64,000 bases of DNA. It comes from Victivallales bacterium (GTDB lineage: Bacteria; Verrucomicrobiota; Lentisphaeria; Oligosphaerales; Oligosphaeraceae). The translations under genes were made by a program, and so were the position numbers. Shown here in pieces: positions 2,908 to 59,584 of this stretch; the stretch's first letter is position 1; each line of letters starts with the position of its first letter. The DNA lies in contig JAFXUD010000062.1 of NCBI GenBank assembly GCA_017535315.1, positions 124,001 through 188,000 of the forward strand, in the 5' to 3' direction. The notes under the pieces are model-generated. The model saw only the letters and a program-made list of their open reading frames with translations, ran no database searches and had not been told where the DNA came from.

Positions 2908-2957
2908 TGTTTACCTCGGTTTTAGTGCTATGTTTGGGGTGTAGATTAAACAATTTA

Positions 2958-3012
2958 GGGTATCTAGACAATCTAAGGTATCTAGGCTATCTAGACAATC
3001 TAGGCTATCTAG
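2958..3012. repeat. Short direct repeats built on CTAGACAATCTA
   Basis: The 12-mer CTAGACAATCTA occurs at 2964-2975 and again at 2991-3002, within alternating GGTATCTA and GGCTATCTA units. The same 12-mer (complement TAGATTGTCTAG) occurs twice at 46668-46697. It lies between the mutarotase-like gene stop and the prepilin pair. Confidence 0.8.
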
Positions 3013-8997: not shown

Positions 8998-9069
8998 GAG
9001 GTAATTTCAAAACTAACGCGAAATGCGCTAAGAGATGGGCGCATTTCGCGTTAGTTTTGAAATTGGCTC
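8998..9069. repeat. Short copy of dispersed palindromic element (copy E2)
   Basis: Inverted ends GAGGTAATTTCAAAACTAACGCGAAATGCGC (left arm from 8998) and the complementary right arm enclose CTAAGAGATGG. The right outermost bases have diverged (GGCTC in place of ACCTC). The interior TAAGAGATGGGCGCA is the complement of a segment in the long copy at 49845-49995, so this is an internally deleted copy. The surrounding gap 8917-9244 otherwise holds only the gnd terminator and an A/T-rich stretch that probably contains the promoter of the next gene. Confidence 0.85.
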
Positions 9070-12668: not shown

Positions 12669-13880
12669 ATGTCAATATTAGCCGTAAACGGCGGAACTCC
12701 GCTCTATGAACTTGGATGCATGAAGACAATTCCCTGGCCGCCTGTGAGCGATGTCACAGCCGACCATCTTCGCGAGCTTTATCTATCGCGTGCCTGGTCC
12801 TTCAACAGCCAAACAGAACAGGATTTCGAGAAGGCGTATGCCGCCTATCAAGATGCCAGGTTTGGTGTATTCATGACCAATGGTACAGTCACGCTGGAGT
12901 GTGCACTGCTGGCTCTAGGTGTCGGGCCTGGTGATGAGGTCATTGTCCCTGGGCTGACCTGGATGGCCACAGCCATGGCCGTACATTATGTCGGAGCCAC
13001 GGTTGTCTTCGCCGATGTGGAGCCCGATACACTCTGCTTGGACCCGAGCTCTGTCGATGAGCGCATCACGGAACGCACCAAAGCGATCATTCCCGTGCAT
13101 CTCTATGGCTCCATGGCCGATTTGGAGAAGCTACTGGCCATTGCCAAAAAGCACGGCATCGCCATCATTGAGGATTGTGCACACATGCAGGGTGGCAAGT
13201 GGGCTGGCAAGGGGGCTGGCAGCTGGGGCGACGTCGGTTCTTTCAGCTTCCAACAGAGCAAGACCCTTTCCTGCGGCGAGGGCGGCATCTGCATTACAAA
13301 CGATGAAAAACTGGCTCTTCGCATCTACCGTGCCAAGCACATCGGCTACTCGCCCAGCAGCCAGCAGGGAAATGCTGACGCACACCCCGATGCAGGACTC
13401 TACTGCCACAACTACCGCGGACTTGCCTTTCCTGCACTTATCCTTCTAGAACAGTTGCCTGGGCTGGACGCCATACTTGAACGCTACAACCAGTTCTACT
13501 TTACGCTGAAGGAGGCGGTGGCAGACGTGGAAGGTTTCTATCTGCAAGCGCAGGGACGCCTGGCAACCCGCCAGGGATATTACGCCATGGGCTGCGTCTT
13601 CGAGAAGGATTCCTGGGGGAATGTGCCAAAGGCGCGGATGTCTCAGGCACTTGTGGCGGAGGGCATGCCATTGCAACTTACCTACGGCCCCGTTTATGAA
13701 CATACTCTCTTCAACCTCGCACCTGAACACTTCCGCAATGACGGCTGCCCCACGGTTGATATGCTGAAACAATGTGCCTTCAATCTTGGACATCGCCAGA
13801 TGTATAACTTGGACAATGTCGAAATCTTCTCCAAGGTCATCCACAAGCTTTCGGAGAACAGACGCGAGCTTGCAGAGTAA
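12669..13880 (+). CDS. DegT/DnrJ/EryC1/StrS family PLP-dependent aminotransferase
   Basis: 403 residues with the complete fold-type I sugar aminotransferase pattern: NGTVTLECALLALGVGPGDEV, VIVPGLTWMATA, IIEDCAHMQGG (Asp169 contacts the pyridine nitrogen) and FSFQQSKTLSCGEGG, in which Lys198 forms the Schiff base. Family members aminate keto-sugars such as NDP-4-keto-6-deoxyhexoses or scyllo-inosose. The opening MSILAVNGGTPLYE resembles the inosose-aminotransferase branch. SD AAAGGA precedes the ATG. It starts 52 bases after the GH42-like gene and is followed by the 57-bp palindrome. Confidence 0.92.
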   Translation: MSILAVNGGTPLYELGCMKTIPWPPVSDVTADHLRELYLSRAWSFNSQTEQDFEKAYAAYQDARFGVFMTNGTVTLECALLALGVGPGDEVIVPGLTWMATAMAVHYVGATVVFADVEPDTLCLDPSSVDERITERTKAIIPVHLYGSMADLEKLLAIAKKHGIAIIEDCAHMQGGKWAGKGAGSWGDVGSFSFQQSKTLSCGEGGICITNDEKLALRIYRAKHIGYSPSSQQGNADAHPDAGLYCHNYRGLAFPALILLEQLPGLDAILERYNQFYFTLKEAVADVEGFYLQAQGRLATRQGYYAMGCVFEKDSWGNVPKARMSQALVAEGMPLQLTYGPVYEHTLFNLAPEHFRNDGCPTVDMLKQCAFNLGHRQMYNLDNVEIFSKVIHKLSENRRELAE

Positions 13881-13894
13881 AATAGGTTTTTAGT

Positions 13895-13951
13895 TCGAGG
13901 TAATTTCAAAACTAGCGCGATGACATCGCGCTAGTTTTGAAATTACCTCGA
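13895..13951. repeat. Perfect 57-bp palindrome, minimal copy of dispersed element (copy E3)
   Basis: Two exact 28-base arms (13895-13922 and 13924-13951) flank a single A. The left arm begins TCGAGGTAATTTCAAAACTA and continues with GCGCGATG. It carries only the ends of the element family. It sits 15 bases after the aminotransferase stop and 28 bases before the next start. As RNA it would fold into one very long hairpin, so it may also act as a terminator or processing site. Confidence 0.92.
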
Positions 13952-13979
13952 TAGTCTAGATGAAAGCTAAGGTGGTTTT

Positions 13980-14786
13980 ATGAAAAAACGTCTTTTCCTT
14001 TTGTTAACCGTAGCCGCCATGTTTTGGATGATGGGGGTACAGGCAGGCGAGATTCTCTGCGAGGCAGGCGGCTTTGCTGGGCACCTCCAGGGGATTTCTG
14101 CAGACGCAACGGGGATTTACTGGTCGTACTATGACACTATCGTCAAGACGGACTATGCAGGTAAAACCTTGGTCTTGGTTAAAATACCTCGCCATTCGGG
14201 CGACCTTTGCGCAGCAAACGGGAAGGTTTATGTCTCTGTCTGCTACTATGATTCCAAAATGGTTGCTGACGAGGGGGGCAGCGGCTGGATTTATATATAC
14301 GATCGCGAACTGAAGTTTCTGCAAAAGGTCGCCTTGCCTGATACCCCGCGGCCAGACGGCATCACCTTCTTGAACGACAAGTTCTATATTGCGGGGGATG
14401 AATTCGGAAAGGAACCGCATCCCCTCAACACTATCAGTATCTATGACAAGGAGTTGAAATTTGAACGGAAAGTTACCATCGACATCGGTAAACCAACCCA
14501 ATACGGCGCGCAAACGCTTAATGCGTTCGAGGGGAAGATCCTCGCCTCCTTCTATGCCAAAGACGGCAATACCGTCTTTCTGGAGCTGCCAGACCTGAAG
14601 GCAGCCGAGTCCTTCTCTCTTTCACTTAACGTTGGTTTTGCTGAGATTCCACCTGAATTGGCCGATGGACGGAAACTCTTCCTCGCAGCACGCATTGTTG
14701 GCACGAGAGGCGACTACAGCGGAAAGGCCCTTATCTATGAACTGCGTGATGGCAAGCCCGTCCACGGAGACCTCAAACGGGAATAA
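13980..14786 (+). CDS. Secreted hypothetical protein, possible beta-propeller
   Basis: 268 residues with a signal peptide (MKKRLFLLLTVAAMFWMMGV, cleavage near VQAGE). The rest has repeated strand-rich units of the type GISADATGIYWSYYDTIVKT, GKVYVSVCYYDS and ITFLNDKFYIAGDEF, reminiscent of NHL/SMP-30-like beta-propeller blades, though too short for a full six-bladed propeller. No catalytic signature was recognised. SD AAGGTGG precedes the ATG. Transcription converges with hrpB. Confidence 0.65.
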   Translation: MKKRLFLLLTVAAMFWMMGVQAGEILCEAGGFAGHLQGISADATGIYWSYYDTIVKTDYAGKTLVLVKIPRHSGDLCAANGKVYVSVCYYDSKMVADEGGSGWIYIYDRELKFLQKVALPDTPRPDGITFLNDKFYIAGDEFGKEPHPLNTISIYDKELKFERKVTIDIGKPTQYGAQTLNAFEGKILASFYAKDGNTVFLELPDLKAAESFSLSLNVGFAEIPPELADGRKLFLAARIVGTRGDYSGKALIYELRDGKPVHGDLKRE

Positions 14787-46664: not shown

Positions 46665-46666
46665 AC

Positions 46667-46699
46667 CTAGATTGTCTAGATAGACTAGATTGTCTAGAT
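46667..46699. repeat. Second locus of the CTAGACAATCTA repeat
   Basis: TAGATTGTCTAG, the complement of the 12-mer at 2964-2975, occurs at 46668-46679 and 46686-46697, only 29 bases before the next start codon. Confidence 0.8.
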
Positions 46700-46727
46700 T
46701 CTAATGCTTTTGCGGGATGGGAGAATT

Positions 46728-49844: not shown

Positions 49845-49995
49845 GAGGTAAAAAACTACCATCGGAATGCGCATTGATATGAACTCATTGGCGTTGGCAA
49901 CGCCTCTCGCCGCACGAAAGTGCGGCTTCGAGCCGTCGCCTTAGCCACTGCGCCCATCTCTTAGCGCATTCCGTGCTTGTTTTGAAAATTACCTC
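49845..49995. repeat. Longest copy of the dispersed palindromic element (copy E4)
   Basis: The ends GAGGTA and TACCTC are paired, with degraded arms (AAAAACTA against TTGTTTTGAAAAT). The interior shares GATATGAAC, CATTGGCGTTG, CCTTAGCCACTGCG and ATCTCTTAG with the copy at 354-467, but carries about 41 extra bases (GCAACGCCTCTCGCCGCACG and onward) between GGCGTTG and GCCTTAGCC, which contain their own hairpin. It lies between convergent genes. Confidence 0.82.
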
Positions 49996-58597: not shown

Positions 58598-59584
58598 TTA
58601 AAGTTCGGGTTTCACAGGCATTCCGCCATTGTGCATGGATTTGTCGATGGCGAAGACAAGTGCAAGGGACTTGATGGCGTCGGAGTATGGATTGATGAGC
58701 TCTTCCTGGGGAAGCGCGCCGCGCACGACATCCACGAATGTCTCGTCGCACTCCATGCCATAGTCGTTGCCTGCCTTGCCTGTAATGGTCATGTTGGGTT
58801 CGGTGATGGTGTAGTTGCCGCCGATGGAGTAGTTGATCTTGCAGCCGTTCTGCGCGTAGGCGTTGATGCCATTTTCACCAGGGCCAAAGCAGCCCGTGTT
58901 GAAGGTGCCGATTTTGCCGTCGGCGAAGGTGAGGATGGTGGAGGAGCAGTCCTCGACGTCGTTGTTCTCGATGTTGGTGATGATGCCTCTGCGGCAGGCG
59001 GACTGCACGAGGACCACGTCACCGAAAAGGTAGCGGCAGATGTCGAAGTCGTGGATGGTCTGCTCGATGGCCTGTCCACCTGATTCCTTCTTGATTCTCC
59101 ACCACCATACCATTGGGAAGCCGCCCAGGCGATGCGCGCTGATCATGGCGATTTTCTTGTGGTTGATCCAGTTCTTCACGAGGGGCAAAGAAGCGGAGTA
59201 GCGGCATTGTAGGCCAACCGCGCCGATCAGTTTCTGCTTCTTGATGCCTGCCAGAACCTTCTTCGCGTATTTCAGGTCAAGTGACATCGGCTTCTGCACA
59301 AAGAGATTGATGCCTTTCTCGATGGCTGCGAACTCCATGCCATCATGGGCGCCTGGCTGCACGCAGACATAGCAGGCATCCAGCTTTTCCTTTGCGAACA
59401 TCTCGTTGTAGTCCTGATACTGGCGGCAGCCGAAACGATCCGCTGTGGCTTGAGTACGCTCGGGGCGCAGGTCGCACGCTGCGACAATCTGGGCCTTCTC
59501 CTTGAGCTTGTCGTAATGACCGAAGTGGAACTGGGCGATGCCGCCGCATCCGATGAAACCGACTTTAATCTTCTTCTTGGCCAT
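58598..59584 (-). CDS. Gfo/Idh/MocA-family oxidoreductase
   Basis: 328 residues from the ATG at 59584 (SD AAGGAAAAG); the upstream GTG-type extension is less likely. KIKVGFIGCGGIAQFHF is the Rossmann opening, and FVQKPMSLDLKYAK has the catalytic-region Lys of the EKP motif (here QKP). GQAIEQTIHDFDICRYLFG contains a second conserved segment. It is an NAD(P)-dependent sugar or inositol oxidoreductase of unknown specificity. It ends 23 bases before the FHA-MoxR gene and seems to begin the seven-gene set running to 50010. Confidence 0.92.
   Translation of the reverse strand: MAKKKIKVGFIGCGGIAQFHFGHYDKLKEKAQIVAACDLRPERTQATADRFGCRQYQDYNEMFAKEKLDACYVCVQPGAHDGMEFAAIEKGINLFVQKPMSLDLKYAKKVLAGIKKQKLIGAVGLQCRYSASLPLVKNWINHKKIAMISAHRLGGFPMVWWWRIKKESGGQAIEQTIHDFDICRYLFGDVVLVQSACRRGIITNIENNDVEDCSSTILTFADGKIGTFNTGCFGPGENGINAYAQNGCKINYSIGGNYTITEPNMTITGKAGNDYGMECDETFVDVVRGALPQEELINPYSDAIKSLALVFAIDKSMHNGGMPVKPEL

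Follow-up and report, generated by a model that had tools for sequence, protein, structure and literature searches.

A perfect 57-bp palindrome in a Victivallales bacterium is very probably a non-autonomous transposable element consisting almost solely of its ends

The perfect palindrome at positions 13895-13951 of the window (the whole 64,000-nucleotide stretch of Victivallales bacterium DNA analysed here) is very probably a MITE, a non-autonomous transposable element, of which scarcely more than the two terminal inverted repeats remains. This reading is based on the high copy number of the family, its size classes with a common end, the exact 4-bp duplications at about half of the copies, and an end core that is also carried by an IS1182/IS5-like insertion sequence in relatives. 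Of the features by which MITEs are recognised, a short length (about 50-500 bp) without a transposase gene, terminal inverted repeats, and dispersed copies in high number were found. Target site duplications were found for the family and not cleanly for the window copy, and ends shared with an autonomous element were found in other genera of the class and not in its own genus. The palindrome therefore counts as a mobile element of an ordinary sort that belongs to a clear family, and its end and partner are newly described in this bacterial class; no report of this MITE family was found in the literature searched on Lentisphaer-/Victivalla- insertion sequences and MITEs.

The palindrome is composed of two 28-nt arms (13895-13922 and 13924-13951) around a centre base A at 13923. 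The recomputed arms are 100% complementary, confirming the perfect 57-bp palindrome with 28-base arms and a one-base centre reported in the initial annotation. According to comparison with other copies, the miniature element proper spans 53 bp (13897-13949), with 26-bp arms on either side of the centre base, and the outermost pairs TC/GA are flank or an extension private to the window copy. The left terminal inverted repeat GAGGTAATTTCAAAACTA occupies 13897-13914 on the + strand, with its first 15 nt being the core that it shares with the ends of the insertion sequence described below; the right one (13932-13949) carries GAGGTAATTTCAAAACTA on the - strand. Folded as RNA, the palindrome reaches -48.4 kcal/mol (z -10.8), and 0 of 200 shuffles fold equally well. 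It is located between two genes of the + strand, a DegT/DnrJ/EryC1/StrS aminotransferase gene upstream (12669-13880; PF01041, E 6.5e-79) and a downstream gene (13980-14786) encoding a 268-aa protein without a Pfam match, whose N-terminus resembles a signal peptide as judged by eye. The 53-bp element lies 16 bases after the aminotransferase stop codon and 30 bases before the next same-strand gene, which corresponds to 14 and 28 bases, respectively, for the 57-bp palindrome.

That the perfect symmetry is an assembly fold-back or sequencing artefact is hardly credible. Contigs of G001 and G002, two genomes of the same genus as the window, do end at or inside palindrome copies (L097, L129, and L130), which indicates that the palindrome is hard to assemble and is what an artefact reading would draw on. 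Against it, unrelated unique sequence and intact genes flank the palindrome on both sides, the same design is found in 33 short copies (at other loci of the genome or at the 13895-13951 locus), and it recurs in relatives that were assembled separately. On the strength of the unique flanks, the many copies, and the relatives, the fold-back was dropped.

The window itself contains six matches to GAGGTAATTTCAAAACTA at no more than three mismatches, compared with 0.01 expected. The initial annotation had spoken of "the copy", and rightly, as related copies are present at 355-466 (112 bp, with exact 4-bp direct repeats TCTA at 351-354 and 467-470), at 8998-9069 (72 bp, with a right end GAGCCAATTTCAAAACTA, a variant that most of the autonomous insertion sequences found carry at one of their ends), and, more degenerate, at 49845-49995. 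The last is a long copy of about 151 bp with a degenerate left end, flanked on either side by the 5-bp direct repeat ATAAT as read from the sequence, and it stands outside the 79- and 80-copy sets described below. The window also carries a second short repeat of TCTAGA/ATCTAGACAATCTAG units, tandem-like and partly palindromic, in spacers on both of its sides (2953-3012 and 46666-46700), as well as a tandem duplication (1406-1939 and 2182-2715, at a spacing of 776 bp) whose copies are 70-86% identical.

Searched against all 96 contigs (4.9 Mb) of the genome, the 18-nt end GAGGTAATTTCAAAACTA gives 79 matches per strand at no more than one mismatch, and the reversed control gives 0. Copies of the element with this end are almost all intergenic and fall into two main size classes, one of about 154 bp and the other of 44-59 bp, the latter being almost wholly two end repeats. 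Copies were collected through end matches and BLAST; as 40 of 161 and 40 of 79 candidates were scored, the set is a sample and not a census. After removal of four doubtful copies (L012:3137, L013:563, L035:2313, and L040:1712) from the 83 detected in the own genome, the cleaned set of 79 comprises 33 short copies (44-59 bp), 40 long ones (107-162 bp, mostly 153-155), and six of intermediate length (60-100 bp). Long copies are mostly 79-92% identical to the long copy of the window (among the 40 of 79 candidates scored). In a search of genome contigs, an exact 22-mer of the element had 17 matching stretches, all of them in two Victivallales bacterium MAGs from goat rumen; the order Victivallales is placed in Lentisphaerota.

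The long element has two distinct inner ends, a left one (..CTATCATCGAAATG) and a right one (..CTAGCGCGAAATGCGC). A simple motif rule sorts the 33 short copies into 21 with two right-type ends, seven with one of each, and five that are ambiguous. The window copy carries two right-type ends and is the sole one among the 33 in which all base pairs match. We infer that the short palindrome with two right ends would have arisen from the long element, with its left and right ends, by a foldback or template-switch copy, and would then have spread. As far as their sequences tell, three copies of 33 bp (L073, L081, and L089) seem to derive from the 49-bp form by deletion between its GAAAT direct repeats, and these apparent deletions look like a further sign of hairpin-linked change. 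The copies thus show rearrangement of the hairpin type, and this agrees with the earlier statement that deletion is the usual fate of such DNA. A minimal, perfect-looking palindrome of 25 bp (GAGGTAATTGCACTGCAATTACCTC) without a target repeat was also observed at L082:1402-1426.

In the first set of 80 copies, exact 4-bp direct repeats abut 39, compared with a mean of 1.6 and a maximum of 7 in 500 shuffles; repeats of 2, 3, and 6-9 bp occur at the level of chance, and those of 5 bp (three copies) near it. In the cleaned set of 79, an exact repeat of 4-6 bp flanks 44 copies, a repeat agreeing at three of four positions flanks 19, and 16 have none. Among the 33 short copies, 16 have an exact target repeat and eight agree at three of four positions, so the likeliest course is that the short forms either transposed in their present size or became shorter once inserted. 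The target sites tend towards C-TWWA-G.

Target duplications of 4 bp are a mark of cut-and-paste DDE transposition, and they bear on another possible origin, in which the palindrome would be of the REP/BIME type and moved by a Y1 (RAYT) transposase instead of a DDE enzyme. The palindromes are indeed short, intergenic, and high-copy, and three Y1_Tnp genes are present in the genome. Nevertheless, the 4-bp duplications are there, the ends match a DDE insertion sequence, and none of the three Y1 loci is bordered by the end (two are without any, and in the third a known short copy lies some 0.8 kb away), which makes a Y1-moved palindrome highly improbable.

The window copy itself lacks a clean 4-bp duplication immediately next to its ends and belongs to the 16 of 79 copies without a repeat. 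The 4-mers abutting the 53-bp element are GTTC and GATA, which agree at just two of four positions. TAGT at 13891-13894 and at 13952-13955 (both + strand), two bases outside the element on each side, was considered as a weak candidate target repeat and rejected, because this offset (2,2) gives one match in 80 copies while 0.56 is expected by chance. Among the orthologous spacers compared, there was no clean pair of filled and empty sites, as these were too diverged or cut by contig ends. At the window locus no empty site was found, the aminotransferase matches of relatives being partial (65-73%) and the contig with the downstream gene stopping just before the spacer; in the comparisons of L164 with window position 58598 and of L157 with L079, the spacers differ throughout and gave no clean empty site.

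IS1272, of the IS1182 family, has been reported in PMC5678879 to replace stem-loops without duplications, and the window copy could have entered in the same way, by replacing an older stem-loop. The partner transposase described below is nearest to the IS1182 model, the window copy is without a clean duplication and its flanks pair for two more bases, and flank pairing in the 16 non-duplicated copies is slightly above that of shuffles (0.036 of shuffles are as high). This signal, however, is carried by three copies (runs of 4, 3, and 2), and 63 of the 79 copies have an exact or three-of-four duplication as the ordinary mode, so that such a replacement is considered quite improbable for the window copy.

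The likely mobiliser was sought among 197 genomes of the class. The 15-nt end core GAGGTAATTTCAAAA is present in 81 of them, with the reversed control giving 0 or 1 per genome among the results listed. The interiors between GAGGTAATTTCAAAA ends differ from genus to genus, and the copies of other genera would, from their sequences, be independent MITE expansions sharing one end type. In G026, a 1390-bp element with a GAGGTAATTTCAAAA-type end on both sides encodes a 377-aa protein with PF05598 and PF01609. The best NCBIfam model for this transposase is IS1182 (NF033551), at 101 bits against a curated cut-off of 270, and its scores against the IS5 models are also below cut-off; the partner is therefore called IS1182/IS5-like only. 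Homologues were found in 35 of the 197 genomes, and transposase loci were examined for 30 of these homologue genomes, several others being fragments cut by contig ends. All eight homologues of at least 54% identity with both sides inside the locus (L230-L234, L236, L238, and L244) have the end on both sides, at no more than 3 mismatches in 15, while at 44-51% identity (L237, L239, L240, L241, and L243) the ends are weak or absent. Exact 4-bp repeats flank two of the eight autonomous copies (L231, atgt; L236, atcc) and not the other six, and the similarity of the MITE to seven of the eight is confined to the ends.

In the same homologue search, neither the window's genome nor those of its two genus relatives yielded a transposase of this family. 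The MITEs of the genus thus seem to be orphaned, and their mobiliser is deduced from relatives. According to this deduction, a DDE transposase of the IS1182/IS5-like family, acting in trans, would have bound to the 15-nt ends and mobilised the elements, preferring C-TWWA-G targets. Other PF01609 transposases were considered in five genomes and rejected, as their loci are without the end on both sides; L098 (G012) was also dropped, since it has one end-like 15-mer (2 mismatches) but its own inverted repeat differs. As a separate observation, the 15-nt end occurs from about 20 to over 100 times per strand in genomes of other genera of the class (G092, G096-G098, G143, G167, G171, and others), where the interiors are unrelated.

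The presence of short and long copies in one genome allows the symmetry of the arms to be compared. Changes were scored against the end consensus over the outer 17 positions. Those present in both arms versus one arm numbered 17:22 in the 33 short copies and 7:53 in the 40 long copies (Fisher p 0.0006), and 12:22 versus 3:53 (p 0.0004) without the extreme copies L019 and L143; counted per copy, the figures are 12 of 33 for the short and 4 of 40 for the long copies (p 0.01), although all of these p-values are optimistic, because some variants are common by descent (A6 to G occurs in three short copies and one long) and the test treats copies as independent. In the short copy L019, the same single T is missing from both arms, and its five symmetric substitutions amount to one matched single-base deletion, which makes the result without L019 and L143 the fairer one. 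Complete matching of the 17 outer pairs is seen in 17 of the 33 short copies and in 9 of the 40 long ones. The relatives of the genus point in the same direction with small numbers (3:5 in eight short copies and 4:14 in 18 long).

When only a few bases separate the arms, template switching during replication would copy one arm onto the other and keep the arms identical. The mechanism has been described for nearby inverted repeats in PMC8794818, and the correction of quasipalindromes by template switching is also treated in PMC7202029 and PMC8604942. The higher arm symmetry of the short copies fits such switching, and selection on a hairpin could give the same. Tentatively, with the odds somewhat against it, we propose that DNA-level template switching between ends about 3-23 bases apart makes the arms co-evolve, that paired changes, including the matched one-base deletion, arise without RNA function, and that the window copy is a fully corrected end state. 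Template switching as the explanation of the window copy's perfection is thus suggested and not proven. The initial annotation had proposed a recent event, and a part of this can be retained, in that the perfecting of the window copy, for example by one template switch, may be recent; the palindrome as a whole is not a lone young inversion and belongs to an old, high-copy transposon family.

A function as an RNA hairpin was suggested earlier as the alternative. On such a reading, the hairpin would be an element such as a terminator or a site of mRNA processing or stability, kept by selection between the aminotransferase and the next gene. The very stable fold, the position 16 bases past the stop codon and between two same-strand genes, and the matched arm changes, commoner in short than in long copies, would all accord with this, and according to PMC10969869, RNase III cuts transposon hairpins of other bacteria, e.g. 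Correia elements. One-sided changes in the short copies lean to transitions (14:8 transitions to transversions, versus 21:32 in long copies; p 0.08), which would fit G-U tolerance and so selection on RNA. On the other side, a scan for intrinsic terminators was negative on both strands of 13700-14150, the stem being without a T-run, and there was no Rfam match at or above the gathering threshold in the whole window. The placement of the 79 copies, determined with a simple ORF caller (48 tandem, 19 divergent, 6 convergent, 5 inside a called ORF, and 1 unplaced), does not favour gene ends; divergent spacers outnumber convergent ones, and long copies, with ends at least 110 bp apart, occupy the same kinds of place. 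This pattern looks like insertion into spacers and not like siting at gene ends. A selected RNA element is accordingly regarded as unlikely, and the proposed function is not borne out. Lying between two same-strand genes, the hairpin is probably transcribed, and a by-product of this may be an effect on mRNA processing, such as possible RNase III cutting.

With the identification as a MITE, a puzzling perfect palindrome becomes a mobile element whose partner is of a named kind, and an end sequence widespread in the class is linked to one transposase group. Short palindromic MITEs also seem to break short-read assemblies of these genomes. If the homogenisation of the arms is true, short and long copies in one genome can separate mutation-driven pairing from selected RNA structure, and paired base changes, which commonly pass for proof that an RNA stem is under selection, would come about with no RNA function behind them.

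The proposed homogenisation resembles the quasipalindrome correction described in PMC8794818, which likewise makes close inverted-repeat arms identical; unlike that work, as far as it describes its system, the process is deduced here from many genomic transposon copies and from no observed mutation event. Among transposases, the partner scores best in the IS1272/IS1182 family (PMC5678879; NF033551), with 101 bits lying far under 270; the stem-loop replacement that PMC5678879 reports for IS1272 differs from the 4-bp duplications made by the window family. Correia/NEMIS, RUP, and ERIC, as presented in PMC10969869 and PMC2229807, are likewise small palindromic mobile repeats, and RUP is tied there to an insertion sequence by common ends and target; these elements mostly have TA at their ends (PMC2229807), whereas the window family begins with GAGG and makes a 4-bp duplication. 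In the terms of PMC10969869, the window family is a type II MITE, a type that resembles an insertion sequence at its ends alone; bacterial MITEs of this type treated there include QMITE1 and QMITE2 of Coxiella and Chunjie of Geobacter. As characterised in that source, they also contain no gene, have inverted-repeat ends and target duplications, occur in high copy at mostly intergenic positions, and form a size series down to tens of bases (39-400 bp for QMITE1). Compared with the accounts given there of QMITE1, QMITE2, and Chunjie, the window family has an unrelated end sequence, a 4-bp duplication with C-TWWA-G preference, short copies that are mostly nearly pure palindromes, and an IS1182/IS5-like partner.
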